This document shows, in pieces, positions 18,171 to 52,864 of a stretch of 64,000 nt of DNA. Numbering within the stretch: the first letter of the stretch is position 1; each line of letters starts with the position of its first letter. This stretch comes from Lachnospiraceae bacterium (lineage in GTDB: Bacteria; Bacillota; Clostridia; Lachnospirales; Lachnospiraceae). The translations under genes and the position numbers were made by a program. The DNA lies in contig JAETQI010000010.1 of NCBI GenBank assembly GCA_021770755.1, positions 1-64,000 of the forward strand, read 5' to 3'. The notes under the pieces were generated by a model, which worked only from the letters and a program-made list of their open reading frames with translations, searched no databases and had not been told where the DNA came from.

Positions 18171-19490
18171 CTAGATCACCACTAATATCAATAATACGAC
18201 AAACAGGACAACGACCGCTCCAAGCACGATCAAACCGGTGACCGCGCCCTTTTTGCATGCGGTGTAATTGCGGTAATAATGAAAATGTCTGAACACAAAG
18301 GCTGCGATCAATCCGAGTACAGGCAGGAAAAAGGACAAAACCCTGTACCATACGCTTCCCGTATCGTGAACCGGCGCCTGCAAAAATTCGTCCTCCGACG
18401 CCGTGTGCACATCTGCCGCCTTCTGCGGGGCACTCTTTGACTGCGGCGCGTCTGGATCGACAATATTGATCGACTTCAAAGGCACGCCCTTCTCACGGAT
18501 CGCCCTGTATTCCGCGATCTCCTTCTTATTTCCATATACATAATGGTCATGACCGATATTGACAAGCTCAGGCTGGTCCGTACTGTAATCATGCATCGAC
18601 GGATCATAGGTGTAGAGCACCTTGTTCTTCTCCAGCTTGGGATCCGGAATCGGGATCGCCGAGATCAATGAATGCGTATACGGATGCAGCGGAAATTCAA
18701 ACAGCTCATCCGCCTCCGCGATCTCCACGATATTTCCCTTGTAGATCACACCGATCCGGTCCGATATAAAACGCACGATAGAAAGATCATGTGCAATGAA
18801 CAGATACGTGACATTCTTCTCGACCTGGAACTTCTTGAGCAGGTTCAGCACCTGTGCCCTGATCGAAACATCCAGGGCAGAGATCGGCTCATCTGCGACA
18901 ACAAGCTCCGGCTCCATTACCATGGCGCGTGCCAGTCCGATCCTTTGGCGCTGTCCGCCCGAGAATTCATGCGGATACCGCGTCAGATGCTCCGGCAGGA
19001 GGCCGACCTCGTTGATCATCTCCTCGACCTTGCGGACACGGTCCGCCTCATTTTCAAACAGATGAAAATTATATAAGCCTTCCGACACGATGTAATCGAC
19101 TGTGGCACGCTCGTTGAGCGATGCCGCCGGATCCTGGAATACCATCTGGATATTCCGGATCACTTCCCTGTCCAGCGAATGCGGAATCTTTCCGGAAATG
19201 CGGACGCCTTTATACAGTATCTCACCGCTGGCGCACGGATTGACACGGATCACTGCCCTTCCGACAGTCGTCTTGCCTGACCCGGACTCGCCTACAAGTG
19301 AGAAAGTCTCTCCCCGATATATATCAAAGCTGGCATTCTTGACAGCCTTCACCGCACTGTCGCCCTTGCCGAAAGTGATATCTACATTTTTGACCGATAA
19401 TAAGATCTCTTTGCCGTTTTTTTCATCAATCGGACCGTGCTCCGGCAAATGGGTCACACGTCCTGCTTTTTCTTGATTTAGGTTTGACAC
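18171..19490 (-). CDS. oppF: oligopeptide ABC transporter ATPase OppF with C-terminal membrane tail
   Basis: ATPase subunit of 439 residues. Walker [10 protein letters not shown] (about 68-76), signature FSGGQRQR, Walker [13 protein letters not shown] and an oligopeptide C-terminal domain ([14 protein letters not shown]) are all present. It then departs from the family: about 60 extra residues (about 381-439) with two hydrophobic segments separated by a basic, Cys-containing loop ([10 protein letters not shown]). Normal OppF is soluble and about 320-340 residues long. The tail may anchor the ATPase to the membrane or contact the ApbE-like protein encoded 1 bp downstream. Confidence 0.88.
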
Positions 19491-19532: not shown

Positions 19533-21281
19533 TTATATATTAAACGCTTTTAACAGTTTCTCGTGGATATTCTGGATCGCCTCCGGCTTCTCGATCCTGG
19601 GTGAGCGCGGATCCAGCAGCCATGTCTTGGCATAATGCGTATCCGTGACCTTAAACATTGGCGGTTCCTTCAATGTATCAATCTTCATACAATACGGGTT
19701 TCTCGGAGCAAATGCATCTCCCACCACCTTGTTGTAGAGAGAAGGCGGTGTACCCGTGATCGAGTACAGCTTCGTATTCTTCTCCGCAAGCTGCGGCATG
19801 GAGGATAACAGTGCCCACGTATACGGATGCCTTGGATCATAGAATATCTCATCCACCGATGCAAGCTCTATGATCTGTCCGGCATACACAACTGCCACAC
19901 GGTCCGCTATATTTGCCACCACACCGAGATCATGTGTGATAAAGACGATCGTGTAATTAAACTCCTTCTGCAGATCCTTCAAAAGCTTTAAGATCTGTGC
20001 CTGGATCGTAACGTCAAGCGCCGTCGTCGGCTCATCACAGATCAGGATCTTTGGCTGGCAGGACAATGCGATCGCGATGACGATCCTCTGCCGCATACCG
20101 CCCGAATACTGGAACGGATAGTCGTCAAAACGTGCCTCGGCATTGGGGATCCCCACTTTCTTCATCAGATCCAGCGCCTGTGCCCTCGCCTGTGCCTCCG
20201 TCACATCCTGATGCTTCATAATGATCGAAGTGATCTGCTTTCCGATCGTGATGATCGGATTGAGCGAAGTCATGGGATCCTGAAATACTGTCGCGATCTT
20301 CTTGCCACGGATCTGATACCAGTCCTTGGCGTATTTCACATTCGCCAGATTCAAAACGCACGTTCCATGGAAGCGATCCGCCGTCTCATCAAGATACTTT
20401 ACGCGGAAAGCCACCTTGTCAAATACAGCATTCCGCTGTGCATCGTCAGACAGATCGACACCTGTGACCATTGCCTGCCTGATCGCCGCCAGGAGCCTGA
20501 TCAGCAGCTTTGCCCGTTTAAAGAAACTGTATCTTCCGATCGAGAGATAGACTTCTTTTGCAAGGATCTCATTGCGCGCTCTCGTCTCCGCAGAGATGCT
20601 TCCCTTCACTGCCGCGTCATACTTTGCTTTCAGCCCTGACATCGCAGCGTCATACTTGCTCGTGTAGGCGGTGTCCTCTTTGACTCTTTTGGATGCTGCA
20701 AGCTCCATTGCCATCCTGTCTTTCAAGAGCTTCTTGATCTCCCGCTCCATGTCCTTGATCGACCTGGACAATTCCTTGATCTTCGCCTTGTCCGTCTTTG
20801 GATCCAGCGTCTGCTTTAAGTTAAACGCCTCTGTCTTCCTGACGCCAAGCTCCGCGATCGCCTGATCGCTTGCCTCGCCTTGCTCCTTACTGATCTTTTC
20901 CTTCTCGGAGCGCTCTGCTTTCAAGGCTTCCATCTCTTTGTAGATGTCTACGCCAAGCTCATACTGGGAGTACGCGTTCAGTTTTGACAACGCATATCCG
21001 ACCATCTTACTGGAAACTGCAGTCTTTCTGACAACCGTGTCCGAAAGCTCCTCGTCGTTGAACAAAATACTGCCGTTGTCAATATAACCATTGCTGTCGA
21101 GCATTCCCGCAAAAGTTTTTGTGAACACAGATTTGCCGGAACCGGACTCGCCCACGATCGCGATCGACTCATTCTCATAAATGTCAAGGGATACTCCCCG
21201 GATCGCAGTCAGCCGTTTTCCGCGCACGCGGAACTTCACCTGCAAATCTTTGATTGATAATAATACTTTTTTATCTTCCAT
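19533..21281 (-). CDS. oppD: oligopeptide ABC transporter ATPase OppD with large coiled-coil insertion
   Basis: ATPase subunit of 582 residues, where about 330-350 is usual. Walker A GESGSGKS is at 44-51, but the Q-loop (FQDPMTSLNP, Q334) comes about 283 residues later instead of about 45. The gap (about 82-322) is filled by a Lys/Glu-rich, helical, probable coiled-coil insertion. Signature YSGGMRQR (about 392-399), Walker B ILICDEPTTALD (catalytic E417) and the C-terminal peptide-transporter domain (RHPYTWALLSSMP) are intact, so ATPase activity is expected. It starts 12 bp after oppC ends. Confidence 0.9.
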   Translation of the reverse strand: MEDKKVLLSIKDLQVKFRVRGKRLTAIRGVSLDIYENESIAIVGESGSGKSVFTKTFAGMLDSNGYIDNGSILFNDEELSDTVVRKTAVSSKMVGYALSKLNAYSQYELGVDIYKEMEALKAERSEKEKISKEQGEASDQAIAELGVRKTEAFNLKQTLDPKTDKAKIKELSRSIKDMEREIKKLLKDRMAMELAASKRVKEDTAYTSKYDAAMSGLKAKYDAAVKGSISAETRARNEILAKEVYLSIGRYSFFKRAKLLIRLLAAIRQAMVTGVDLSDDAQRNAVFDKVAFRVKYLDETADRFHGTCVLNLANVKYAKDWYQIRGKKIATVFQDPMTSLNPIITIGKQITSIIMKHQDVTEAQARAQALDLMKKVGIPNAEARFDDYPFQYSGGMRQRIVIAIALSCQPKILICDEPTTALDVTIQAQILKLLKDLQKEFNYTIVFITHDLGVVANIADRVAVVYAGQIIELASVDEIFYDPRHPYTWALLSSMPQLAEKNTKLYSITGTPPSLYNKVVGDAFAPRNPYCMKIDTLKEPPMFKVTDTHYAKTWLLDPRSPRIEKPEAIQNIHEKLLKAFNI

Positions 21282-21293
21282 TCTGCCATCCTC

Positions 21294-22313
21294 TTACATA
21301 TGTGTTCTTGGATCGGACGCATCACCGAGATTCTGACCGACCACATACAATACAATCGTGATAATCGAAGCAACCGCAACCGGACTCCAGAACTCAAATC
21401 CCCATCCGGGTGTCAGCATCGCACTCTCCGCCTCGTAGATCAACCGGCCAAGCGACATCTCCTTGAGTCCCATGCCGATGTAGGCAAGGAACACCTCATA
21501 GGAAATGTACGACGGGATCTCCGTCGCCGCAAGCGTCACAATAACAGAAGTCATGAACGGCAGTATATTCTTCATCGCGATCCGGATCGTCGACGTCCCC
21601 AGACATTTCGAAGCCAGATTGTACTCCCTGTCGCGGATGATGACAACCTGCGTGCGGATAAAATACGCGATAAACAGCCAGCCTGTGACCGTCATGGCAA
21701 ATACCATGGTCCAGAAGCCTGCCGTAAAGATCATCACCATGACAGAGATCACCAGGATATAAGGAAGGTTCGCAATGACGTTATAGACGATCATCATCAC
21801 ATTGTCAACCTTCTTGGAAAATCCCCAGACCGCCCCGACGATGACACCGACCGTCATGTTGATCAGCGCTACGACGAGCGCCAGCGATATGGAGATCTGC
21901 GAGCCGTACCAGATCGCGTCAAAAGTGGACTGTCCGGCCGCGCCGGCACCCAGGATCCAGTGAATACTATAGCCAAACTGTTTGAACGCCGCGGAGGGCA
22001 TCAGGTGCTTCGCCTCCGGATTCAGCAGATTGCCGTACCGGTCATACTCCACGAAAATCGGGTACAGGTAAGCCATCAGGATAATGACAGCCAGCAGTCC
22101 CAGCATTATGATATTGATCTTTTTTCTGAAAAATACGCGAAATACAGAGTGCCAGTACGAGTATCTGGGCGCCGTGATCTTCTCCGACTCCAGATCACTG
22201 TGGTTGATCACCTGAAAAAGCTCCGCATCCGACATTCCTTTTGTCGGGTCAACCTCCTCCAGATTGTCCACCGTCACTGTCACATGTTTCCCCATCTTAA
22301 AATCTACATTCAT
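21294..22313 (-). CDS. oppC: oligopeptide ABC transporter permease OppC
   Basis: Inner-membrane permease of 339 residues with a roughly 65-residue soluble N-terminus and about six TM helices. The coupling (EAA-like) segment NLASKCLGTSTIRIAMKNIL docks on the ATPases. The OppC-type ending QNLGDASDPRTHM is present. Between TM1 and TM2 there is an external loop of about 50 residues. Forms the channel with OppB. Start supported by co-linearity with oppB (29-bp gap). Confidence 0.9.
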   Translation of the reverse strand: MNVDFKMGKHVTVTVDNLEEVDPTKGMSDAELFQVINHSDLESEKITAPRYSYWHSVFRVFFRKKINIIMLGLLAVIILMAYLYPIFVEYDRYGNLLNPEAKHLMPSAAFKQFGYSIHWILGAGAAGQSTFDAIWYGSQISISLALVVALINMTVGVIVGAVWGFSKKVDNVMMIVYNVIANLPYILVISVMVMIFTAGFWTMVFAMTVTGWLFIAYFIRTQVVIIRDREYNLASKCLGTSTIRIAMKNILPFMTSVIVTLAATEIPSYISYEVFLAYIGMGLKEMSLGRLIYEAESAMLTPGWGFEFWSPVAVASIITIVLYVVGQNLGDASDPRTHM

Positions 22314-22342
22314 ATTCTCTTCCTCTCCTCTTGCCCGATGAC

Positions 22343-23914
22343 CTATCTCGCCTTACTTGAGAAGGAGATCCGAGGGTCGACCATGGACATCAGCACATCA
22401 CCCAATATAATCGCCACGACGCTGAGCACCGCATAGAATAAGGAAACGCCGACAATAACGCCGTTATCGTACTTATTGATCGCCTCAGTCAGCAGGTTAC
22501 CGGCACCAGGCACCACATACACGCGCTCCGTGATGATCGCACCCGTCAGACATCCCAGCACACTTCCCGGAATACCGTGGATGATCGGGATCGCCGCATT
22601 CTTTAAAATATGCTTTGTAAAAATCTCATTCTCGGAAAGGCCGCCTGCCCTGGCAAACTTCACATAGTCCGAGTTCATCTGGTCGATCATATAGCGGCGC
22701 AGCCACTTCATCAGGTTGGCAACCTGCGGCAGCGCAAGCGAGATGATCGGCAGCACATACACCAGTCTGTTGGTCGTATCCATATCAAAGGTTGTCGGGA
22801 ATCCCAGCTTGCTTCCCATCGCTTTGAACAGGAAGATATACGCCAGCGAAGGTACTGCAATGATAAACACAATATACAGCGTACCGATCTTATCGATCAG
22901 TTTATCCTTTCTGCGCGCCATGGCAATCCCGAGGGGCACCCCGAGCAGATATGCCAGGACGGTGGCAATGATACCGATCAGGAAAGAGTAGCCCATCTTG
23001 GAGAACCCGCCCTTCACCGTGTCCACCACGGTATAGTCATCGACGTAGCGCGTCTCATACACGAGACTCGAGTGCATGGAATCCGCCAGATACGTTGCCG
23101 AGTGCAGATCGTCCGCACTCTCCTCCACCAGTCCTGTCGGATAGGTGACTGTCGACGCAATGTAAGAACCCTGCGTCTTTGTCATGGTCGTGAACACATC
23201 AACCCCCGTGTTGACAGAATAGGAGGTTCCCAGCCGGATCGTCAGCATATTCTGGTGGATAAACGGAAATGTGGAATCACAATAGAACAGATACTTGTGT
23301 CTCGTCCCGTTTCCGATGATTGCCGGTGAAAATTTCTCCCCGCCGTAGACAGGGTCATATAAAGTAAAGGAAATACCGCGATCTCCCACATCATTTTCAA
23401 TCTTATTAATATTATCAATCTCTATTATTCCCGTAAAATAATCCCACACGCGGTGGAACAGCGGAATATTCTTGTAGGCATACAACTGTTGCTGCCCGCC
23501 GCTGGCAATCTTCTTCTTGCCCATCAGAACGGCATCCAGGCGCTCCACTGTATAACCCTGTGATCTGTAATAATTCGTAAACTTATCTACATATTCTTTT
23601 ACAAGCTCCGAATCTTTGTCCGGAGTCCTGCCAAACCCAACGGCCGCGGATCTGGTCTCCTCGTCGATCTCCCCGCTCGCTGTAAGGGCACTCAGATAAT
23701 CGGAGTATGTCACATAGTCCAGATAGCCGTAATCTTCCCATTTCTGATACTTGTAAGTCGCTTTCTGGTTGTTCTGCTGCTTCGTGTACGTCGGATCTGA
23801 TGCAAAGATCAGATTGCGATCCAGCAGGGAATAGATCATGATCATGATCAGTATAACGACTGCAACCACCGATAACAGTCCATACAATAAACGTTTCAAT
23901 AAATACTTAGCCAT
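22343..23914 (-). CDS. oppB: oligopeptide ABC transporter permease OppB with large ectodomain
   Basis: Permease of 523 residues; standard OppB has about 310. TM1 (about 12-33) is followed by an extra extracytoplasmic domain of roughly 260 residues before the normal permease core starts near GYSFLIGIIATVLAYLLG. The coupling helix is KFARAGGLSENEIFTKHILK, and the ending VLMSMVDPRISF is typical of OppB. The insertion may help hold the lipoprotein OppA. A hairpin separates oppA from this gene. Confidence 0.9.
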   Translation of the reverse strand: MAKYLLKRLLYGLLSVVAVVILIMIMIYSLLDRNLIFASDPTYTKQQNNQKATYKYQKWEDYGYLDYVTYSDYLSALTASGEIDEETRSAAVGFGRTPDKDSELVKEYVDKFTNYYRSQGYTVERLDAVLMGKKKIASGGQQQLYAYKNIPLFHRVWDYFTGIIEIDNINKIENDVGDRGISFTLYDPVYGGEKFSPAIIGNGTRHKYLFYCDSTFPFIHQNMLTIRLGTSYSVNTGVDVFTTMTKTQGSYIASTVTYPTGLVEESADDLHSATYLADSMHSSLVYETRYVDDYTVVDTVKGGFSKMGYSFLIGIIATVLAYLLGVPLGIAMARRKDKLIDKIGTLYIVFIIAVPSLAYIFLFKAMGSKLGFPTTFDMDTTNRLVYVLPIISLALPQVANLMKWLRRYMIDQMNSDYVKFARAGGLSENEIFTKHILKNAAIPIIHGIPGSVLGCLTGAIITERVYVVPGAGNLLTEAINKYDNGVIVGVSLFYAVLSVVAIILGDVLMSMVDPRISFSSKAR

Positions 23915-23969
23915 AGAAATCTCCCATTCCTGCTGTGTGAACCTCTTTTCACTTTATTTATTTTTTATC

Positions 23970-24005
23970 TTATCCGGGAAACGGCGCAGGCCGCTCCCCG
24001 GATAA
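23970..24005 (-). other. strong intercistronic hairpin between oppA and oppB
   Basis: TTATCCGGG (23970-23978) and CCCGGATAA (23997-24005) pair perfectly, extended by inner GC pairs. No T-tract follows on the minus strand, so it is more likely an RNA-stabilising or partial-stop element that keeps OppA more abundant than the permeases. Confidence 0.55.
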
Positions 24006-24020
24006 CATTGTATCACATGA

Positions 24021-26285
24021 TTAGAAAATACCAAGACTCTTTGTTACATAGCCTGAATAATCAGGTAAGAATGTGTCAAGATATGTTGCCGGATCGCCGT
24101 AGTCAGGACCCCAGCCGGATATATCCGTGATATTGTAGTTCGCTTCATATCCGTAATCTGTAAAATATCCTGTATAATGCCACTCATTGTTGTCCGCGCA
24201 ATCTGCAAGGACGATCTCAACCTTATCGCCAAGGGCACCCTCGATCGACTGCTTCACAGCGTTTGCCTGATTGGTGACCCACTCGATGCTTGATGTGTAC
24301 GGAAGCTCCAGACGAACCGGATGCTCCGCGTCGATCACAACACCCTGTGCCGCAAGCTCCTCGATCGCCTTATCCAGATAAGCCGCTGCATTTTCCGGAT
24401 TGTACCATCCATCATAGCCGTCACTGCTTCCGACACCATCATCCGCATTCTTGTCAAACGCCTTGATCGGATATCCGTCCGCGTCAAGCTGTGCCTGCAC
24501 GATCTCGCCGTAGTTTGTTCCTGCCGGGAATGTTGTCGCTGTACCATTGATATCGATCGTCGTCTCGCTCTCCAATGTCACAAAGTTGCCGGGCAGGTAA
24601 GCGTTTCTAAGTCTTCCCAGCTTGAGATCCTCGCCCACGCGCTGTGCCTGTCTTGCAGCCTTATCTGTCGCAAACGAAACTGCAAGACGGAAACTGGCAT
24701 TTCCAAGCGCAGCATTCGCCAGATCCTTCTCCTCGTCTGTGAGGACAGATACAACCTTTGTCTCATCATTGCTGTTTGCATATGCTGTACGATAAAGATT
24801 GTAGTAGATCGGGAAGGTAGAACCGTTTGTAGAGCTTACATATACATACTCGTCAAACAGTCCGTCCGCCTTCGCAGTCTCAACCTCAGAAGTACTCAGG
24901 CCAGATCCGGTCAGCACGCCGCTCTTGACATCATTGTACATCTTTGTGGCATCGGACTGATCCTCATACGGCCATGTCATGGACTTGATGGTCACGTTGT
25001 CCTTATTCCAATATGATTCATTCTGCTTAAATGCGATCACATTCTTTGATGTAAAGTTTGTGATCAGGAACGGTCCGCAGTACGCGATATTGTCAGGCGA
25101 CTTTCCATAAGAATAGTCTGCTGCGGAAGCGTCAAACTCCTCGCCGAACTTACCGCCCTGTGAAGTATAATAATCCCTGCTGAGCGGAGCGAACACATTG
25201 TATCCGAGCATGGACGGGAAGTACGGGATCGCCTCCTCCAGCGTGTACTCCAGTGTATAGTCGTCAACCGCCTTCACACCCACCTGTGAAAAGTCTGTGA
25301 TCTCGCCTGAGATATAGCCGGAAGCGTTGAGGACAACTCCGTCGACCAGATCGCCCAGACCGCCATTCGTGTCGATCATGTGCTGGAAACCTGCAACCCA
25401 GTCATCCGCCTTGACATCCGCCACTTTTCGTCCCTGGGAGTCCACCCAGTCAACGCCCTCGCGGATATGGAATGTGTATGTCTTTCCGTCGTCAGAAACA
25501 TCGTAGCTCGTCGCCAGTGCAGGCTGCTGTATGTTTTCATTATCATACTCGAGCAGACCATCGTATGTGTTCACCGGCGCATAACTGTCAACAGTCTGGC
25601 TGGTAGAAAGGATATCCCACGTTGTCGGATCAGAGTTAAAGGCATTGAACGCATAGGAATCCATAAGCTCGTAGCCCTTCTCCTCAAGGTATGTCTTCAC
25701 CCAGTCAAGGTAAGTCCCTGTACCCTGAAGCTCCGCCCACTTCTGCTTCATCTCCGTCCTGTCCGCGGTCTTGATCAGCTCTGTCGTCACGAGCGCGTTG
25801 TGGAATCTGTACTCGTCATTGCCCCAAAGCACGGATGTCACTGTGCCGGGCACCACTCTTGACATCGCATAGGATCCGCCCTGCGCCGTCTGCGGATTCA
25901 GCACACCAGACTCCAGAAGCTTTGCCTCCGCTACCGCCATCATGGCGTGACGCTTCGAGAGATCGCTGACCTCAGCCTTCGCTTCCATATAAAGCTCATA
26001 GAACTCGCCGAGATTCTGCTCATACAGGTATGTAGAGCGCTCGTCATACTCCATGGCAGCCAGCTCCTCCATCGTCTTTGCCGATGACGCCGCCGGCTCT
26101 TCACCCTCTGCCACAGTCTCATCTGTTCCTGCCGCCTCTGTCCCAGCCGTCGTCTCCGTCTGGTTATTGTTCTCCACTGCAGGCGTATCTGTCGCCGGCG
26201 CATTTCCGCCGCCGCAGCCCGCCAGAGAACCAGCGACCATCGTTCCTGCCAGCAATACGGCAAGAACTTGTTTTCTGTTTTTCAT
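24021..26285 (-). CDS. oppA: oligopeptide-binding lipoprotein OppA (SBP_bac_5)
   Basis: Extracellular solute-binding protein of 754 residues, about 200 longer than classical OppA. A signal peptide ends in a lipobox (SLAGC, lipidated Cys about 24). A Thr/Glu/Ala-rich linker and a helical spacer (about 70-200) precede the SBP_bac_5 domain (VDSYAPVNTYDGLLEY, then YTFHIREGVDWVDSQG). It captures peptides and delivers them to OppBC. AGGAGG lies 11 bp before the ATG. It is the first gene of the operon, behind a structured leader. Substrate size and type are unknown. Confidence 0.92.
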   Translation of the reverse strand: MKNRKQVLAVLLAGTMVAGSLAGCGGGNAPATDTPAVENNNQTETTAGTEAAGTDETVAEGEEPAASSAKTMEELAAMEYDERSTYLYEQNLGEFYELYMEAKAEVSDLSKRHAMMAVAEAKLLESGVLNPQTAQGGSYAMSRVVPGTVTSVLWGNDEYRFHNALVTTELIKTADRTEMKQKWAELQGTGTYLDWVKTYLEEKGYELMDSYAFNAFNSDPTTWDILSTSQTVDSYAPVNTYDGLLEYDNENIQQPALATSYDVSDDGKTYTFHIREGVDWVDSQGRKVADVKADDWVAGFQHMIDTNGGLGDLVDGVVLNASGYISGEITDFSQVGVKAVDDYTLEYTLEEAIPYFPSMLGYNVFAPLSRDYYTSQGGKFGEEFDASAADYSYGKSPDNIAYCGPFLITNFTSKNVIAFKQNESYWNKDNVTIKSMTWPYEDQSDATKMYNDVKSGVLTGSGLSTSEVETAKADGLFDEYVYVSSTNGSTFPIYYNLYRTAYANSNDETKVVSVLTDEEKDLANAALGNASFRLAVSFATDKAARQAQRVGEDLKLGRLRNAYLPGNFVTLESETTIDINGTATTFPAGTNYGEIVQAQLDADGYPIKAFDKNADDGVGSSDGYDGWYNPENAAAYLDKAIEELAAQGVVIDAEHPVRLELPYTSSIEWVTNQANAVKQSIEGALGDKVEIVLADCADNNEWHYTGYFTDYGYEANYNITDISGWGPDYGDPATYLDTFLPDYSGYVTKSLGIF

Positions 26286-26373
26286 AATACGTAAACCTCC
26301 TTACAAAATTTATGTTTTAACCTGTATTTAAGGTAAAAACCTGCCTAATTTTGCCATTTTTAAAAAGAAAAAG

Positions 26374-26411
26374 CAAAAAAGTGCCTGTGAACGCCATTGT
26401 CCAGAGCACTT
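26374..26411 (-). terminator. intrinsic terminator inside the oppA leader
   Basis: On the minus strand AAGTGC-T-CTG (26411-26402) pairs with CAG-GCACTT (26387-26379), followed directly by a T run. It stands 56 nt downstream of the -10 box and about 90 nt before oppA, so it acts on the opp leader transcript. Confidence 0.7.
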
Positions 26412-26473
26412 ACTTCCTATTCCCGACATAAGCTTTCGCTTTAGTACGCTAAAGTAAGTTTATGTCAAACGAC
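26402..26473 (-). promoter_or_regulatory. putative riboswitch or attenuator ahead of oppA
   Basis: The leader RNA can form hairpin P1 (GACATAA/TTATGTC, 26466-26460 with 26431-26425) enclosing P2 (CTTTAG/CTAAAG, loop CGTA, 26454-26449 with 26444-26439). Alternatively ACTTACTT (26459-26452) can pair perfectly with AAGTAAGT (26415-26408), whose last four bases are the start of the terminator stem. The pairings exclude each other: P1/P2 lets the terminator form; the alternative blocks it. No known riboswitch class was recognised. Together with the promoter and the terminator this accounts for the gene-free stretch 26286-26632. Confidence 0.55.
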
Positions 26474-26479
26474 TATTTA

Positions 26480-26508
26480 ATTATACTTACAATGAAAAAT
26501 TTTGTCAA
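26480..26508 (-). promoter_or_regulatory. consensus sigma-A promoter of the opp operon
   Basis: TTGACA (26508-26503), a 17-bp spacer and TATAAT (26485-26480) match the consensus at all 12 positions. Transcription should start near 26473. Such a strong promoter fits a mechanism in which control is exerted later, in the leader RNA. Confidence 0.9.
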
Positions 26509-26632
26509 TAGCCTGCATTGCCACACTATCTTCCAGTTCTGCTATTTTTTATGCAATATCACCTACAAAAATGCAATAAAAGTCTGCTGCATTCATTCTT
26601 TTACTGCATTTTTGTACATTTTAACCAATTTT

Positions 26633-27319
26633 TCAAGGTTTGCTAATGTTCTCGATCTGCCAGTCAACCGGTTCCACCCCGTTTGCCGTCAGAAACGCAT
26701 TTGCCTGACTGAAATGCCTGCACCCGAAAAAGCCGTTATTGGCAGACAGTGGACTGGGATGCGCCGCTTTCAGGATCAGATGCTTCGGATTGGTGAGCAT
26801 CGGGATCTTTCGCTGTGCCGGCCTCCCCCACAGCATATACACGATCGGCCTGTCCTGCGCATTGACTGCCTGAATGATGGCATCCGTAAATTTCTCCCAC
26901 CCTTTTCCCTGATGGGAATTTGCCTGATGCGCGCGCACGGTCAGAACTGTGTTGAGCAGCAACACGCCCTGATCCGCCCATTTCTTCAGATAACCGTTAT
27001 TGGGAATATAGCATCCAAGGTCCGCGTTCAGTTCCTTGTAGATATTCTGCAGCGATGGCGGCAGCTTCGTCTGGCTAGGAAGCACCGAGAAGCTCAGCCC
27101 GTGCGCCTGATCCACATTGTGATATGGATCCTGCCCCAGCAGCAGCACCTTCACCTTGTCAAGCGGTGTGAAGTGCATCGCATTGAATATGTCATCCGCA
27201 GGCGGAAAAACCTGTACGGTACTGTACTCTTCCTTCACGAACTGATACAGCTCCCTGTAATAAGGCTGATGAAACTCCCCCTGCATCGCCTCTAACCATT
27301 CTCCTGTCAACATTGCCAT
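26633..27319 (-). CDS. ung: uracil-DNA glycosylase
   Basis: Family 1 UDG of 228 residues that removes uracil from DNA in base excision repair. Motif A is GQDPYHN with the catalytic Asp; the later loop HPSPLSANNGFFG carries the catalytic His; LLLNTVLTVRAHQANSH is the Ung signature. The ATG at 27319 is chosen because AGGAG lies 8 bp upstream; the one at 27325 is too close. It follows hisF by 34 bp and is followed by the opp promoter. Confidence 0.96.
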   Translation of the reverse strand: MAMLTGEWLEAMQGEFHQPYYRELYQFVKEEYSTVQVFPPADDIFNAMHFTPLDKVKVLLLGQDPYHNVDQAHGLSFSVLPSQTKLPPSLQNIYKELNADLGCYIPNNGYLKKWADQGVLLLNTVLTVRAHQANSHQGKGWEKFTDAIIQAVNAQDRPIVYMLWGRPAQRKIPMLTNPKHLILKAAHPSPLSANNGFFGCRHFSQANAFLTANGVEPVDWQIENISKP

Positions 27320-27353
27320 AATCATTTCTCCTTTGCACTATATATAACCACAC

Positions 27354-28115
27354 CTATAACCGCACCGGGACGCCCCGATCCCTCAGATACTTTTTGACTT
27401 CCCTGATCTCCAGCTCCTTGAAGTGGAACAGCGATGCCGCAAGCGCCGCGTCCGCTTTTCCCTCCACGAGCGAATCATAGAAATGCTCTGGCCGTCCAGC
27501 GCCGCCCGATGCAATGACCGGTATGGACACCCTTTCGGATATCGTTCTGGTAAGCTCGATATCATAACCGTTTTTCGTCCCGTCACGATCCATGCTCGTG
27601 AGCAGGATCTCCCCGGCACCAAGCTCGTTTGCCCGGACTGCCCACGCTACCGCATCGATGCCCATATCGATGCGTCCGCCATTCTTATAAATATTCCAGC
27701 CGCTTCCGTCCGGCCTGCGCTTCGCGTCGATCGCGACAACGACACACTGGCTCCCAAACTTGTCGGCTGCGTCGCTGATCAGTGACGGATTCATGATCGC
27801 CGCGCTGTTCACTGCCACCTTATCCGCCCCTTCGCGAAGGATCGCCCTGAAATCCTCCACAGTCCGTATACCGCCCCCGACCGTAAATGGGATAAATACC
27901 TTCTCTGCCACTCTGCGCACCATATCCACCGTTGTGGCGCGATCGTCTGACGAAGCTGTGATATCCAGAAAGACTACCTCGTCCGCGCCCGCCTTGTCAT
28001 ACGCCGCCGCGATCTCGACCGGATCGCCTGCATCGATCAGATTGACGAAATTGACACCCTTGACCACTCTGCCGTTATTGACATCCAAACATGGAATAAT
28101 CCTCTTTGTTATCAT
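27354..28115 (-). CDS. hisF: imidazole glycerol phosphate synthase subunit HisF
   Basis: Cyclase of 253 residues, (beta/alpha)8 barrel. It uses ammonia from HisH to turn PRFAR into imidazole glycerol phosphate and AICAR, in histidine synthesis. [17 protein letters not shown] holds the catalytic Asp of the first strand (D11), VAIDAKR the second catalytic Asp; phosphate-binding [10 protein letters not shown] and ASGGAG are present. GGAGG precedes the ATG. It follows hisH by 37 bp. The other his genes are not in this window. Confidence 0.97.
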
Positions 28116-28152
28116 TTATTTCCTCCATACGCGCTCCATCCGGGCACCGAAT

Positions 28153-28758
28153 CTATATCGCCACAAAATTCTGCAGGATCCGCAGTCCCACATCAGAACT
28201 CTTCTCCGGATGGAACTGGCAGGCAAACACATTTCCCTTCTCGACAGAAGCGTGGATCTGTACCCCGTACACAGTCGTCGCTGTCACGATCTCTGGTTCT
28301 TCCGCCTGCAGATAATAGGAATGTACGAAATACACATAGGATTCCTCCCCGATCCCGCGAAAAAGCCTGCCGCTGTTTGGAAATCTCAAGGAATTCCACC
28401 CGATCTGCGGCACTTTCAGTCCCCCGTCGTCCGGTATCTTTATGATCCTTCCCCGTAAGATCCCAAGCCCCTGTACGCCCGGCGTCTCCTCGCTGGACTC
28501 AAACAGCAGTTGCAAGCCCAGACAGATCCCAAGAAAAGGCGTCTTTCTTGCGACCACTTCCTGAATGATCTCCTCCAGGCCATACCCCCTGATCTTTTCC
28601 ATGGCATCTCCAAAGGCGCCGACCCCCGGCAGGATCACTTTCTCCGCCCCCAGTATCGTCTCCTTGTCCCTTGTGACTACTGCCGTTTCACCCAGTGCCA
28701 TCAGCGCTTTTTCCACGCTCTTAATATTTCCGGCATCATAATCGATTATCGCTATCAT
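28153..28758 (-). CDS. hisH: imidazole glycerol phosphate synthase subunit HisH
   Basis: Class I glutamine amidotransferase of 201 residues that releases ammonia for HisF. Catalytic Cys is in [13 protein letters not shown], and the His and Glu in [12 protein letters not shown]; the N-terminus [15 protein letters not shown] is typical. It sits 28 bp after the acidic membrane protein gene, so histidine synthesis genes are read together with a signalling-type cluster, which is unusual. Confidence 0.97.
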
Positions 28759-28786
28759 CTGTCCCTGCCTTTCTGCGCATACCGTC

Positions 28787-30388
28787 TCACGCTCCTGCTA
28801 TGACCTTCTTTAACGCGATCGTGTAGGACACGGCATCCTGATTGGCTATAATGGCTCTGGCATCCGCCTCGTCAAGCCCATACTTCTGGGACAGGATCTC
28901 CAGGATGTCCGCCTTGACTGCATCGACCTCCGCCATCACTTCATACCGCTCCGCATCCGCATTGACGCTGTCATACGCCGTGATCCCCCGCAACAGCGCG
29001 TCAAGCGCTTCCACTTCCCTTCCTGTCTTTATGTATGTCTGATAAGAATCGTACCTGCGCTGGACTGTAAAGATCACTTTGCTTCTCGCCTGGATCAGAC
29101 CGTCATTCTTGCTGTCATCAAGCTCCATGCCGTAGGTCGCCGCATATACCGTCTTGTAATCTCCGTCGTAGTACGCATTTCGCGCCGTCTGCAGAAATCC
29201 CTGTGTCGAGAGCACGTTTGACGCCAGAACGATCGCACCGCCCACCGAAGCGCCAAAAGCAACGGCAACCGCAATCTTTTTGGGCGGTATCCGTTTCTTG
29301 GGACCCTCCGCTGCAAGTTTTGCCTTCTGTGCCGCTTTCTTTGCGAGCTTCTCCTTTTTCTTCTGCGCTGCCGCCTCCTGCTTTGCGCGATTGGCTGCCG
29401 CTTTCTCCTCCGCCTTTGCCTTTTTTTCCTCTTCCCTGGCGAGTTTTTCCTCTTCCTTCTTGGTCAGATTCTCCTGTTTCTTTGCCGCTTTTGCTTCCTT
29501 CTCGGCGGCAAGCTCCTCCTCCGTCGGTTCCGGCACGATCTCCTCTGTCAGCAGATTGAAAAACTTTCCCAGTTTACCGGGCTGCTTTGGCTTCTCCGTA
29601 TCGGACTCCGCATCTTCCTTATCGCCCTTTTTCTTCTTTTTCCCTGCCTTTTTATCCTTTTTCTTCGGCTCGCTTTCCTCCGGCTCGGACTTAAGACGGG
29701 ACAGGTCCGGAAGCGGCACTCCGTCATCGTCGTCATCCATGTGCTTTCCCGCGTTCACGGATGCTGCCTCGTCGTCCGCCATCTGATGCAGCAGATCCAT
29801 CATATCATCCTGGATCGGCTCATTGTTGTCCGATTTTTTGAGCATGTCATTGATCTCTGCAAGCTCCGCGTCATCATCAAGCATATTCAGCACATCCTCG
29901 AGATTGTCATCCAGACTGATCGATGCGTCGTTCATATCCTCATTGTCATCCAGCATAGCCAGATCTCCGGTTCCGGCACTGATATTGTCAAACTCCAACT
30001 CGTCAATATTCAATTCGCCAGCCATCTGACACTCTGTCTCCGACTGGATCGCCTGATCAAGCCCGTCAATGCTCAGGTCATTCCCCAAAAAGGATTCATC
30101 AATATCTTCTAATTTAAGTTCGCTATCTGACTCCGGCATCTCTATATCCTCCAAATCTATTTCTTCCTCTGCCTCTGTCGCACCAGATCCCTCCCCTGGC
30201 ATCACGATATCGGACAGCTCCAGATCAGAGAGATCCAGATCGGGTATCTCCAGATCAGGTATCTCCAGGTCGGGCGCCTCCGGTATCTCAAGTGAGTCAA
30301 TATTCAGTTCTTCCATCAAAGCCGGCTCATCTACAGATATTGGCGCCGCTGTCCCTGTCGTATCTCCTGTTATCACTGGTTCTTCCAT
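28787..30388 (-). CDS. acidic, single-pass membrane protein of unknown function
   Basis: Protein of 533 residues, not recognised. The N-terminal third is very acidic with short repeats (EIPDLEIPDLDLSDLELSD) and many Asp/Glu-Ile/Leu units. A Lys/Glu/Ala-rich, probably helical stretch (about 225-365) leads to one TM (about 371-394), followed by a C-terminal domain of about 140 residues with a helical, TPR-like start (NAYYDGDYKTVYAATYG). The basic run before the TM predicts a cytoplasmic N-terminus and an outside C-terminus. ATG 30388 has GGAGGAGG at 8 bp. The layout recalls FimV-like scaffold proteins, but that is only a resemblance. Confidence 0.75.
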   Translation of the reverse strand: MEEPVITGDTTGTAAPISVDEPALMEELNIDSLEIPEAPDLEIPDLEIPDLDLSDLELSDIVMPGEGSGATEAEEEIDLEDIEMPESDSELKLEDIDESFLGNDLSIDGLDQAIQSETECQMAGELNIDELEFDNISAGTGDLAMLDDNEDMNDASISLDDNLEDVLNMLDDDAELAEINDMLKKSDNNEPIQDDMMDLLHQMADDEAASVNAGKHMDDDDDGVPLPDLSRLKSEPEESEPKKKDKKAGKKKKKGDKEDAESDTEKPKQPGKLGKFFNLLTEEIVPEPTEEELAAEKEAKAAKKQENLTKKEEEKLAREEEKKAKAEEKAAANRAKQEAAAQKKKEKLAKKAAQKAKLAAEGPKKRIPPKKIAVAVAFGASVGGAIVLASNVLSTQGFLQTARNAYYDGDYKTVYAATYGMELDDSKNDGLIQARSKVIFTVQRRYDSYQTYIKTGREVEALDALLRGITAYDSVNADAERYEVMAEVDAVKADILEILSQKYGLDEADARAIIANQDAVSYTIALKKVIAGA

Positions 30389-30409
30389 GATCGGTCCCTC
30401 CTCCAAGCT

Positions 30410-31222
30410 TTAGTCATGCCCATACTCCCGCAGATAATCAACTGCGTTCATACCTATACTGATCCCCTTATCGCTCAACTCCTCGGTCATCTGGAACAGG
30501 GAGGCATTCACCCTGAAAAAACTTGCTTTCTGATTATAAAACGCAACCTTTTCAAACGGCCACCTGATAATATTGGGCAGATTCAGTTCCACTCCCAGTT
30601 CAAGGATACAGAGCTTCCTGTTCAACGTTAGCTGCAGCCACTTCGTGTACCGCTCCCACTGCGCCTGATAACCTTCCTCTACATAATTCTGCTCACACAG
30701 GATATTGTTGTAAGCCAGCGGCTTCCCGCAGGCAGGGCACCGGGGGATCTCAAGAGAATCCAGTCCCACGCCGTCGAGGATCGCCTGCTTTACCAGATCC
30801 GAAAACTCCATAGAAGGATACAGCGCATTGCTGCACTTGCCGCTGCACTGAAGCATCTCATGATTTCCGCACGGTTCCACCACTCGCTCTGTGTCAAATG
30901 CAGCTTTCCTGATATTCTCATCAATGCAGGTTGTGATCACAAAATAATCTTTGTCCCTGATCATCTCATAAAGATTCCGGTACGCTTCCACAAGTCTGCC
31001 ATCCTCGTGCTCGATCAGGAAACGATGCTCCAGAAACGGCACTGTCCACTCAAGCGTCTGGTCGATGTCCACCTCTTCGAGTGCGGACATGAGATGCGGA
31101 AACCTGCCGATATCACTAAAATCTTCGTTGAACTCCTCACCGATGCCCACAAGCACCCGGTCTGCATCGGCGATCTTTTGTAACAGTAATCTATGTTTCT
31201 CAACGATCTCCATCTTGTCCAT
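30410..31222 (-). CDS. sirtuin-like protein with altered catalytic residues
   Basis: Protein of 270 residues with a Sir2-type plan: nucleotide-binding VLVGIGEEFN (24-32; GAG in sirtuins), VITTCIDENI (95-104; TQNID in sirtuins), a zinc site C126-X3-C130...C162-X2-C165, and LELGVELNLP near the end (compare ELGTSLxVxP). The residues that matter for deacetylation are changed: the Asn of TQN is Cys99, and the catalytic His of the HG motif is Cys118 (EPCGNHE). It may bind NAD or ADP-ribose without deacetylating. ATG 31222 has TAGGAG 5 bp upstream. It stands between cheV and the acidic membrane protein gene. Confidence 0.65.
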   Translation of the reverse strand: MDKMEIVEKHRLLLQKIADADRVLVGIGEEFNEDFSDIGRFPHLMSALEEVDIDQTLEWTVPFLEHRFLIEHEDGRLVEAYRNLYEMIRDKDYFVITTCIDENIRKAAFDTERVVEPCGNHEMLQCSGKCSNALYPSMEFSDLVKQAILDGVGLDSLEIPRCPACGKPLAYNNILCEQNYVEEGYQAQWERYTKWLQLTLNRKLCILELGVELNLPNIIRWPFEKVAFYNQKASFFRVNASLFQMTEELSDKGISIGMNAVDYLREYGHD

Positions 31223-31240
31223 GCTATCTCCTAACTTACG

Positions 31241-31266
31241 AGAGCCGGGCATCCCATCCCGGCTCT
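31241..31266. other. 9-bp perfect hairpin between cheV and the sirtuin-like gene
   Basis: AGAGCCGGG (31241-31249) and CCCGGCTCT (31258-31266) flank an 8-nt loop. No T-tract follows on the minus strand, so it may slow or process the transcript rather than end it. Confidence 0.5.
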
Positions 31267-31292
31267 ATAAGCAAAATCTTAATAAGAAAACA

Positions 31293-32189
31293 TTATCTTG
31301 CGAGCAGCTCATCAATAACCTTGACAAGATTTCCGATTTCAGGTTTGGATAACTGTGCGTCCGCACCCAGATCTTCACCCTTCCTCCTCATTTCCTCATT
31401 GACGAGTGAGGAGAAGATGATCACTGGTATGTGCTTTGTCGCATCATCTGATTTCACAAGCTTTGTAAGACGATGTCCATCCATGAGCGGCATCTCGATA
31501 TCCGTGATCAGCAGATGCACCTCTTTATCCAGCGTTCCCGCATCCCTGCACTTCACTATGTACTCCCAGGCTTCCTCTCCGTTTTCTGCCTTGATGATAT
31601 TCTCATATCCCGCTTTCTTGAGGGAATCGATGATAAGCTTCCTCAGAAGGGATGAATCCTCCGCGATCAGGATCGGAACCTCTGTATTTTCCCGCGCGCC
31701 CAGCGCATCGATCTCTGTCACTTTCAGTCCTGTCTCCGGATTGATATCTGTAATGATCTTCTCAAAATCCAGAATGATGATGATCTTTCCATCGATCTTG
31801 ATGATACCTGTAGAGATACCGTCTTCCGCTGACGTCACGGTTGCACCCGGTTTAATGATATCAACCCACGAAACTCTGTGGATACCGATTACTGCGTCAA
31901 CATGAAAAGCAATGTCGAGTTTATTAAAACTTGTGATGATAAACAGACCGCCCGGCTGGGACTGTCCGCGCTGCAGGCAGTTGCGCAGGTCGATCGCCGT
32001 GATCATGGCATCGCGCGGCATGAAGATGCCCTCCACGCTGGGATGTGCATTGGGCACGGGCGTTACCGGGGAATAGGTGATGATCTCCCTGATCTTTGCC
32101 ACATTAATGCCGTAAGAATTTCCATCCACCACAAATTCCAATACTTCCAACTCATTAGTTCCGTTCTCCAAGAGAATCTTAGTCTCCAT
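31293..32189 (-). CDS. cheV: CheV-type chemotaxis coupling protein (CheW plus receiver)
   Basis: Protein of 298 residues. The N-terminal CheW-like domain (EVLEFVVDGNSYGINVAKIREI) couples receptors to CheA; the C-terminal receiver domain has the acidic pocket (ILIAEDSS), the phosphorylated Asp in LLITDIEMPLMDG, and the conserved Lys in LSKPE. CheV phosphorylation by CheA tunes adaptation of receptor arrays. It has its own promoter and a leader of roughly 90 nt. The start has GGAGG before it. Confidence 0.93.
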   Translation of the reverse strand: METKILLENGTNELEVLEFVVDGNSYGINVAKIREIITYSPVTPVPNAHPSVEGIFMPRDAMITAIDLRNCLQRGQSQPGGLFIITSFNKLDIAFHVDAVIGIHRVSWVDIIKPGATVTSAEDGISTGIIKIDGKIIIILDFEKIITDINPETGLKVTEIDALGARENTEVPILIAEDSSLLRKLIIDSLKKAGYENIIKAENGEEAWEYIVKCRDAGTLDKEVHLLITDIEMPLMDGHRLTKLVKSDDATKHIPVIIFSSLVNEEMRRKGEDLGADAQLSKPEIGNLVKVIDELLAR

Positions 32190-42875: not shown

Positions 42876-43220
42876 GGGGTAGTAAAGGTTTCGACAGGGA
42901 ATCTGAAGATGGAGAAGCAGGTCGCAGGCATGCGTCAAATCCAAAATTAAAATTAAACGCTGAAGACAATTTAGCATACGCAGCCTAATGGCTGCTGTCT
43001 GACCCAGTGCACCTACACATTGGGAGCCAGGCATCGATCATGTAGGAAACGACACATATCAAGCTTTGCGTATGTGGGCGTATCATGAAGCTACTGACTG
43101 TATAGGGGCGTTGGTTCGCCTGTACAGAAGGGAAATGAGCACCGCTCGAAACAATCAACTAAGCCTGTAGAAGTACATGGGATGGTTTTTTGGACACGGG
43201 TTCGACTCCCGTCTACTCCA
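42876..43220 (+). ncRNA. ssrA: transfer-messenger RNA (tmRNA)
   Basis: The 5' end GGGGTAG pairs with CTACTCC near the 3' end (7 bp, one G-U), giving the tRNA-like acceptor; GGTTTCGACAGGG and the T-arm GGTTCGACTCCC are the standard tmRNA landmarks. The tag reading frame runs from the resume codon GCT at 42959 to TAA at 42986-42988 and encodes AEDNLAYAA. CCA is not encoded, so it must be added. tmRNA with SmpB rescues stalled ribosomes and marks the unfinished protein for proteolysis. Confidence 0.95.
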
Positions 43221-43274
43221 TTCATGGGAGCCCTTATGATTTATTAACAGAGGGTTTTCAGGAATTTCAACTAT

Positions 43275-43348
43275 GGAAGCATAGCTCAGCTGGGATGAGC
43301 GCTCGCCTGACTAGCGGGAGGCCAAGGGTTCGAGCCCCTTTGCTTCCA
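43275..43348 (+). tRNA. tRNA-Val (anticodon GAC)
   Basis: A 74-nt cloverleaf: perfect 7-bp acceptor (GGAAGCA/TGCTTCC), D arm GCTC/GAGC, anticodon loop CTGACTA with GAC, and T arm AAGGG-TTCGAGC-CCCTT. Discriminator base A; CCA not encoded. It reads valine codons GUC and GUU. It lies 54 bp after tmRNA. Confidence 0.93.
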
Positions 43349-52566: not shown

Positions 52567-52864
52567 AATGAAAAATCCCCTGTAGAAATCATTCTACAAG
52601 GGACGATTAAAACCGCGGTACCACCCATGTTCCTATGATATCCATGCGGCACAGCCATACGCCGCCCGCATACCATAGACGCTCACAAGACGTAACGTGT
52701 CACTCCGTCTCTCCCTACAATGCTGACTGACAGCACTTCAGGAAAGCTGCTCCGGTGGGAACTTTGGTATCATATCTGAACTGAGGAGGCTTTCAGCCGG
52801 TGACCTCCGATCTCTGACAGAAAATATGACCCTACTTACACCTTCATTGCATTTTGATATTATT
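52567..52864 (-). promoter_or_regulatory. T-box riboswitch of the pheST-queA operon
   Basis: On the minus strand GGGTGGTACCGCGG (52626-52613) is the T-box sequence that binds the tRNA acceptor end. It is followed by a terminator (CCCTTGTAGAA/TTCTACAGGGG, then T5; 52603-52571). Upstream lies the structured Stem I region; a TTC triplet at 52761-52759 is the candidate Phe specifier, but its placement in the specifier loop was not folded. Uncharged tRNA-Phe should favour antitermination. This and the promoter fill the gene-free stretch 52530-52938. Confidence 0.93.
52571..52603 (-). terminator. T-box leader terminator
   Basis: An 11-bp stem with a T run on the minus strand, competing with the antiterminator that holds the T-box sequence. 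Confidence 0.85.

Follow-up and report, generated by a model that had tools for sequence, protein, structure and literature searches.

What decides whether these gut bacteria transcribe their oligopeptide transporter genes? The window analyzed here, a 64,000-nucleotide stretch of contig JAETQI010000010.1 from a Lachnospiraceae bacterium, holds an oppABCDF operon preceded by a short leader on the minus strand. A preliminary description of the window took this leader for three mutually exclusive structures behind a consensus promoter, with the logic of a riboswitch or a protein-controlled attenuator. All of our evidence comes from sequence, and several of the genomes compared are metagenome bins. 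It suggests that nitrogen probably controls peptide import through a protein, and not through a riboswitch.

A promoter, a hairpin, and a terminator precede oppA

The sequence confirms the leader, with a promoter, a 5′ hairpin, and an intrinsic terminator ahead of oppA (Table 1); ung-like and hisF-like genes, both named by inspection, lie upstream. The promoter had been described as a 12-of-12 match to consensus, which was borne out; it is the sole such site within 20000-32000, and its two hexamers are identical in all 11 sequences from the genus. The stem P1/P2 is likewise present in the computed fold, and a terminator does lie before oppA. The predicted fold of the 105-nt leader has an energy of -30 kcal/mol (z -2.97), which 1 of 200 dinucleotide shuffles equals or betters. 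However, the minimum-energy fold contains P1/P2 and the terminator together, so the leader has two competing layouts rather than the three proposed, and only the 8-bp pairing excludes the others. The range given earlier for the leader, 26402-26508, also misses most of the terminator (26411-26375), its most conserved part.

Table 1. Features of the opp leader and operon in the window.
Feature	Position	Strand	Details
Promoter, TTGACA-N17-TATAAT	26480..26508	-	TTGACA 26508-26503, TATAAT 26485-26480; 12/12 consensus
5′ hairpin	26422..26469	-	P1 26469-26460 with 26431-26422; 3-bp stack adjoining; inner P2 26454-26449 with 26444-26439
8-bp pairing	26408..26459	-	ACUUACUU 26459-26452 with AAGUAAGU 26415-26408; perfect in the window; possible antiterminator, not conserved
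Intrinsic terminator	26375..26411	-	Lower stem AAGUGC/GCACUU, apical hairpin, U6 26380-26375
ANTAR-type hairpin, UGGAC-AAUGGC-GUUCA	26388..26403	-	Hexaloop 26398-26393 with A1 and G4; 14-mer GGACAATGGCGTTC 26402-26389
Conserved imperfect palindrome	26311..26341	-	GGTTTTTACCT...AGGTTAAAACATA; between terminator and Shine-Dalgarno; 8-sequence alignment
oppA, family-5 solute-binding protein	24021..26285	-	First gene behind the leader, ATG at 26285; Pfam SBP_bac_5
oppB, permease	22343..23914	-	Pfam BPD_transp_1
oppC, permease	21294..22313	-	Pfam BPD_transp_1
oppD, ATPase	19533..21281	-	Pfam ABC_tran with oligo_HPY
oppF, ATPase	18171..19490	-	Pfam ABC_tran with oligo_HPY

The palindrome behind the terminator shows both-sided changes in L003 and is a candidate second hairpin or repressor operator.

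Conservation of the leader

The preliminary description had proposed a covariance comparison with the leaders of oppA homologues. Run here, it found covariation for the 5′ hairpin and the terminator, but none for the alternative pairing among homologues from the genus. Across P1, P2, and the terminator, 93.8% of cells pair in 10 distinct rows from the genus. Both-sided changes occur in 9 cells against 3.3 in shuffles (0 of 500 had as many) and involve 5 pairs, a number reached by 58 of 500 shuffles; of these pairs, the 5′ helix has four (three within P1 and one within the 3-bp stack) and the terminator one. For the terminator hairpin in 13 sequences (10 from the genus, plus G328, G193, and L036), 3 pairs have both-sided changes, as many as in 19 of 500 shuffles.

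The terminator apex, GGAC-AAUGGC-GUUC, is nearly invariant, while the 5′ hairpin varies more and finds only poor matches beyond the genus. The loop itself reads AA(U/G)GGC in 11 of 11 sequences from the genus. Intrinsic termination does not depend on the letters of the loop. That they are kept all the same suggests that something should read them.

The 8-bp pairing fared less well. It is perfect in the window, as first described, but stays intact in no more than 4 of 11 rows (the window, L002, L003 with one G-U, and L004). None of its pairs has both-sided changes, and the share of cells that pair, 87.5%, is the same after shuffling. Before the 3′ arm of the terminator is made, its 5′ arm is predicted to pair upstream with a probability of 0.59 in the window versus 0.58 with shuffled upstream sequence, and 55 of 100 shuffles are as high. 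Among the 18 leaders put through this comparison, the shuffles as high per 100 number 5 for L005, 6 for L011, and 11 for L010; for L050, L054, and L121, which are leaders of another type, they number 2 each. We therefore reject the 8-bp antiterminator as a conserved switch, given that it is broken in most rows, without covariation, and at chance level. In several leaders the terminator arm does find a partner upstream, though the strand differs. For L010 and L011 this could be GCACAUGCUUAU with GUAAGUAAGUGC, so there may be an antiterminator whose partner varies. We also discarded a helix between the hexaloop and the 5′ tail (GUCGUU:AAUGGC), for which L003 and L010/L011 show, by eye, no compensating change.

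Distribution of the leader

Within the genus, 11 of 38 genomes carry the leader, each in a single copy and ahead of a solute-binding-protein gene. It stands directly behind ung in 10 of them, and in the eleventh (G021) ung and the leader are at the ends of different contigs; 30 of 37 ung matches were looked at for this synteny. By inspection, G003 and G021 (L010 and L011) have a different solute-binding lipoprotein gene behind the same leader. In two more genomes of the genus, G024 and G029, ung is followed by an opp-type gene, but the leader is different. In their ung-opp intergenic regions (L050 and L054), a hairpin UAUUCAC-AAGGGA-GUGAAUA overlaps the terminator, and both carry an 18-codon ORF (MYYSILFLL..., read by eye). 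This ORF was considered as a leader peptide and dropped, being not kept in L121 (by eye).

Some relatives hold a structured insert of ~120 nt between the 5′ hairpin and the terminator (L005, L006, and L008; shorter in L009), which is absent from the window. It occurs once each in G036, G007, and G006 and partially in G023, i.e., in 4 of 38 genomes. Since it is single copy in each and confined to the opp leader, we rejected the idea of a dispersed, mobile repeat.

Outside the genus, the terminator hairpin precedes OppA homologues in G328 and G193, which belong to two other genera, and in L036 (= G433, a Lachnospiraceae contig). A whole-leader model built from the genus only and run on 397 genomes reached the oppA leader of G328 at E 0.036, behind a match that looks like chance (L083, E 0.0096, better than L084); L085, which precedes a bioD-like gene, looks like chance as well. 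Over 70 kb, the same model found L120 (E 1e-4) and L036 (E 1e-3), both leaders of OppA homologues, and it matched upstream of 3 of 13 such homologues (12 from other genera, plus L036).

A model of the hairpin, R2, had its three strongest matches among the 397 genomes in G000, G193, and G328, all members of its own seed; under strict filters, with 16 candidates scored per genome, it gave no other strong site. The next matches, G301 (32.1 bits) and G148 (29.7 bits), are without such a hexaloop and not before oppA, and were set aside. In L187 and L188 (G118 and G356), a GGGCAAAGGCGTTC hairpin lies just before a T-run, with the same membrane-protein-like ORF downstream in both.

The terminator apex resembles an ANTAR target

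Searches of Rfam with the opp leaders, at gathering and permissive thresholds, returned nothing credible. The best permissive matches (sraL at 17.2 bits versus 39, and miRNA families) look like chance, and the T-box model RF00230 has no match at 26270-26560 with E up to 5. The opp leader shares its attenuator layout before transport genes with T-box and riboswitch leaders; however, it has no match at gathering score, and the T-box of the window is elsewhere. The earlier statement that no known class is recognizable can nevertheless be refined: the apex, judged by its letters and predicted pairing, carries an ANTAR-type hexaloop hairpin near identical to those in the leaders of glnA-ANTAR operons.

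The comparison draws on the A1/G4 hexaloop rule and the eut core AGCAANGRRGCUY, as given in PMC3369931. The window hexaloop, AAUGGC, has A1 and G4, is closed by C-G, and tops a stem of at least 3 bp; the loops AAUGGC, AAGGGC, and AAUGGG fit both rule and core. According to the same source, the dual-hexaloop antiterminators of EutV (eut of Enterococcus, Listeria, and Clostridium; nasF; amiE) have A1/G4 hexaloops of the AANGR type closed by C-G, in an attenuator leader, with an ANTAR protein in the genome and a nitrogen theme, all of which recur here. Two differences stand out against that source (PMC3369931): the opp leader has one hexaloop instead of two, and its hairpin is nested in the terminator apex, whereas the eut hairpin overlaps the terminator 5′ arm, an arrangement excluding termination that is not found in the window leader. 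No second A1/G4 hexaloop was found in the window leader, be it at the 5-12 nt linker of eut or elsewhere. Among the 11 leaders from the genus, L010 alone has a second hexaloop upstream (AGGGCA), as does L036 (ACAGTT), both much more than 12 nt away. In the 2022 EutV-RNA structure paper (PMC8934654), a single hexaloop is the minimal ANTAR binding motif; the window hairpin conforms to this motif in sequence and predicted structure, as do the glnA-ANTAR leaders, and is a putative binding site.

The fit is uneven beyond the genus. The loop of G193, GGUGGA, is without A1, although G193 encodes an ANTAR protein. Hairpins with AANGRN loops occur before oppA in 8 of 16 cases versus 0.79 expected, a count that we do not rely on, because the L119 site is in an apparent terminator of a neighboring gene and the second L116 site is a Shine-Dalgarno. 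The opp leaders of G159, G167, G024, G029, and G221 have AANGR-like loops in other flanks (G221 by eye).

The hairpin recurs in glnA-ANTAR leaders

ANTAR leaders before nitrogen genes, including that for glutamine synthetase, are already known (PMC3369931; PMC3369936), as is the antiterminator nitR for ammonia assimilation in C. acetobutylicum (PMC4676874). Here, 40 of 41 ANTAR loci hold glnA, and the 41st begins at a contig edge. We fetched 55 stretches before glnA and placed glnA in 54. An AANGRN hexaloop hairpin overlapping the terminator 5′ arm is present in 14 of the 54 (mean 0.25 and maximum 1 over 20 rounds of shuffles). The 14-mer RRRC-RANGGB-GYYB, a pattern composed after the glnA set had been seen, occurs in 20 of 54 glnA stretches (200 mononucleotide shuffles: mean 0.115, maximum 2) and in 12 of 20 opp leaders, two of them identical; the 20 do not count six OppA homologues in which no leader terminator is evident (L115, L117-L119, L123, and L124).

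With a weight matrix made from the 14 glnA hairpins, all from outside the genus, the oppA site comes out on top among 127,974 window positions at 18.3 bits; the second-best site, at 16.0 bits, is a Shine-Dalgarno (57958). Beyond the genus, L036 (15.5) is the one opp leader with a good score. The leaders of G328 (3.3) and G193 (0.6) score low because their flanks or loop differ, and the five leaders with AANGR-like loops noted above score from -3.2 to 7.5. In the opposite direction, a hairpin pattern derived from the opp leaders was written before any glnA leader had been viewed. It found 26 sites in 24 of 397 genomes (the window's own included), versus 14 sites for the reversed pattern, which indicates that most are chance. 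The one useful match is L108 (G417), with a TATAAT box, the hairpin, and a T-run, the hairpin lying 165 nt before a glnA gene (61% identical).

The two kinds of leader have a close promoter, a GRAC-AANGGC-GUUC-type hairpin, and a terminator in common, within the same family. In the glnA leaders, the hairpin begins 7-12 nt behind the -10 box in 12 of 14, with the promoter picked by script; 11 of the 14 promoters match at 10-12 of 12 positions, L257 matches at 9, and those of L254 and L259 are poor and further off. Their hairpin is mostly at the RNA 5′ end, overlapping the terminator 5′ arm, whereas the opp hairpin is ~70 nt in and nested in the terminator.

The own-genus glnA stretches lack the 14-mer hairpin (0 of 6), and that of G000 has none by eye. 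When stretches further upstream of glnA were taken from five other genomes, the hairpin appeared in G433 only, and not in G328, G159, G193, or G002. In some genomes a hisA-like gene lies between leader and glnA, so a 300-nt stretch before glnA can miss the leader. The two loops of G433, AAUGGG in the opp leader and AAAGGG in the leader before the hisA-like gene, both end in GGG. At position 380 of L250 (G140), before a hisA-like gene preceding glnA, stands GTGGACAATGGCGTTC, 16 letters identical to several opp leaders.

A candidate regulator beside glnA

The ANTAR domain (PF03861) has a match in 33 of the 38 genus members, among them every one of the 11 that carry the leader; five had no match, and that of G014 is below the curated cut-off. 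Among genomes outside the genus with an OppA homologue, 11 of 13 have an ANTAR protein, and the two without, G252 and G151, have no AANGRN hairpin before oppA. However, the domain was also matched in 175 of 200 genomes sampled from the family, and a protein this nearly ubiquitous means that its co-occurrence with the leader carries little weight.

In G000, the genome of the window, the sole ANTAR match detected (C59:13238-13378) belongs to a 182-aa protein encoded directly behind glnA, and both genes are on a contig other than that of opp. Alignments of the protein with EutV (6wsh) and with a "putative antiterminator" (1s8n) have E values of 2 to 3e-6. Unlike EutV, it has a receiver-like part without the phospho-acceptor Asp: G stands in that column, and Asp is found in 0 of 36 aligned relatives (the script missed 6 of 42). 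Judged from these alignments, the signal is therefore probably not phosphorylation. Sensing by GlnA would be a guess. The protein also seems, in the alignment, to be without several of the residues with which EutV contacts RNA. In L155:7727-8275 (-) and relatives, whose receiver-like part is without the Asp, a mostly conserved HRYxQKxSMD stands where EutV has RNA contacts.

Proposed mechanism

Of the two readings first offered, the protein-controlled attenuator has good support: 11 of 38 genomes of the genus retain the promoter, 5′ hairpin, and terminator ahead of solute-binding-protein genes, and the terminator hairpin is found again beyond the genus. The riboswitch is not supported. We consider it fairly probable that the opp leader is a protein-controlled attenuator with the ANTAR protein beside glnA as most likely regulator, responding to nitrogen through a single hexaloop. 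RNA polymerase would start at or near the predicted start site of the consensus promoter and make ~100 nt to the terminator, whose apical hairpin would present one ANTAR-type hexaloop, AAUGGC. The best candidate for the regulator, the one ANTAR protein detected in the genome and encoded on the other contig, would bind this hexaloop depending on nitrogen status. Binding would then decide whether the lower stem AAGUGC/GCACUU closes, giving termination, or transcription reads through into oppABCDF.

Which way would binding act? The hairpin of glnA leaders competes with the terminator, as it does in eut, so a bound ANTAR protein should block termination there. By analogy, binding probably prevents termination at opp too, aided by upstream pairing of the released 5′ arm. 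However, the opp hairpin lies within the terminator, whose closure leaves it intact, so binding by itself does not exclude termination, and because of this nesting an effect that promotes termination is also possible. A bound protein could sterically hold the lower stem open, favor its closure, or be held by the terminated RNA as a decoy. Constraining the fold to read-through costs 6.2 kcal/mol in the window leader, and between 4.2 and 10.4 kcal/mol across 13 leaders.

According to PMC8934654, both hexaloops must be contacted to block termination. This makes the antitermination step somewhat less likely and a decoy somewhat more likely, and it moved our odds a little. A related possibility, which we hold to be doubtful, is that the hexaloop survives termination and the ~100-nt RNA stays a ligand of the glnA-linked ANTAR protein, either aiding closure of the terminator or titrating the protein. 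In that case, peptide import and ammonia assimilation would be coupled through one RNA hairpin, and, where closure is aided, an ANTAR protein would act as a termination factor.

Alternative explanations

It is unlikely that the promoter and terminator simply make a ~100-nt small RNA, strongly produced and always terminated, that acts as an ANTAR decoy like EutX/Rli55 or by pairing with a target, with oppA served by leakage or another promoter. Such an RNA would fit the hairpin being intact after termination, unlike in the glnA leaders, and the promoter and terminator being kept while the gene behind them changes (L010 and L011). It would also fit PMC8934654, which expects single-hexaloop sites where the transcription time limit of antitermination is absent and names EutX and Rli55 as ANTAR-sequestering RNAs, EutX with an extra single hexaloop. 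The terminated opp RNA would resemble these in being short and displaying an ANTAR hexaloop, but it has only one hexaloop and no known riboswitch match, and sequestration here is hypothetical. However, the element stands again before OppA homologues in G328, G193, and L036, and in G328, where synteny was seen, the gene upstream is not ung, which fits a role in cis. A good second promoter between terminator and oppA is also missing (best 8 of 12 in the window, up to 9 of 12 in relatives).

A metabolite riboswitch, in which P1/P2 and the 8-bp pairing (possibly a pseudoknot) sense a ligand and shift the balance of antiterminator and terminator, is quite improbable. The 5′ hairpin does covary within the genus, the 8-bp pairing is perfect in the window, and the insert of some relatives could be an aptamer domain. 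However, besides the Rfam result, the 8-bp pairing is neither conserved nor above chance, and the 5′ hairpin, the putative aptamer, has fewer of the conserved letters than the terminator apex and fades beyond the genus. Least probable of all is a plain, leaky, unregulated terminator behind a strong promoter, its loop kept for termination efficiency only: similar stems are found in many intrinsic terminators, and weak matches of the hairpin model elsewhere resemble ordinary ones, but this would explain neither the uniform loop in the genus nor the 14-nt motif common to glnA leaders.

Implications for nitrogen control

As far as the literature was searched, three things are new: opp as a target, a 14-nt consensus for this family, and a single hexaloop nested in the terminator. 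Judged by title and abstract, none of the papers found ties ANTAR proteins to oligopeptide transport in Lachnospiraceae, and our search found no paper with both "ANTAR domain" and "Lachnospiraceae." If attenuation by the ANTAR protein is correct, oligopeptide import would join the ANTAR targets and provide an example of a single-hexaloop site, a kind of site whose role needs more work according to PMC8934654. GRAC-AANGGC-GUUC is a concrete candidate RNA target for a widespread ANTAR protein, with glnA adjoining in 54 of 55 stretches, and with it nitrogen control in these gut bacteria becomes directly testable.

The window has other RNA features. The T-box leader mentioned above is at 52596-52856 (-), where it scores 93.2 bits against a gathering score of 93, and a tmRNA (42876-43223, +) and a tRNA (43275-43348, +) are also present.
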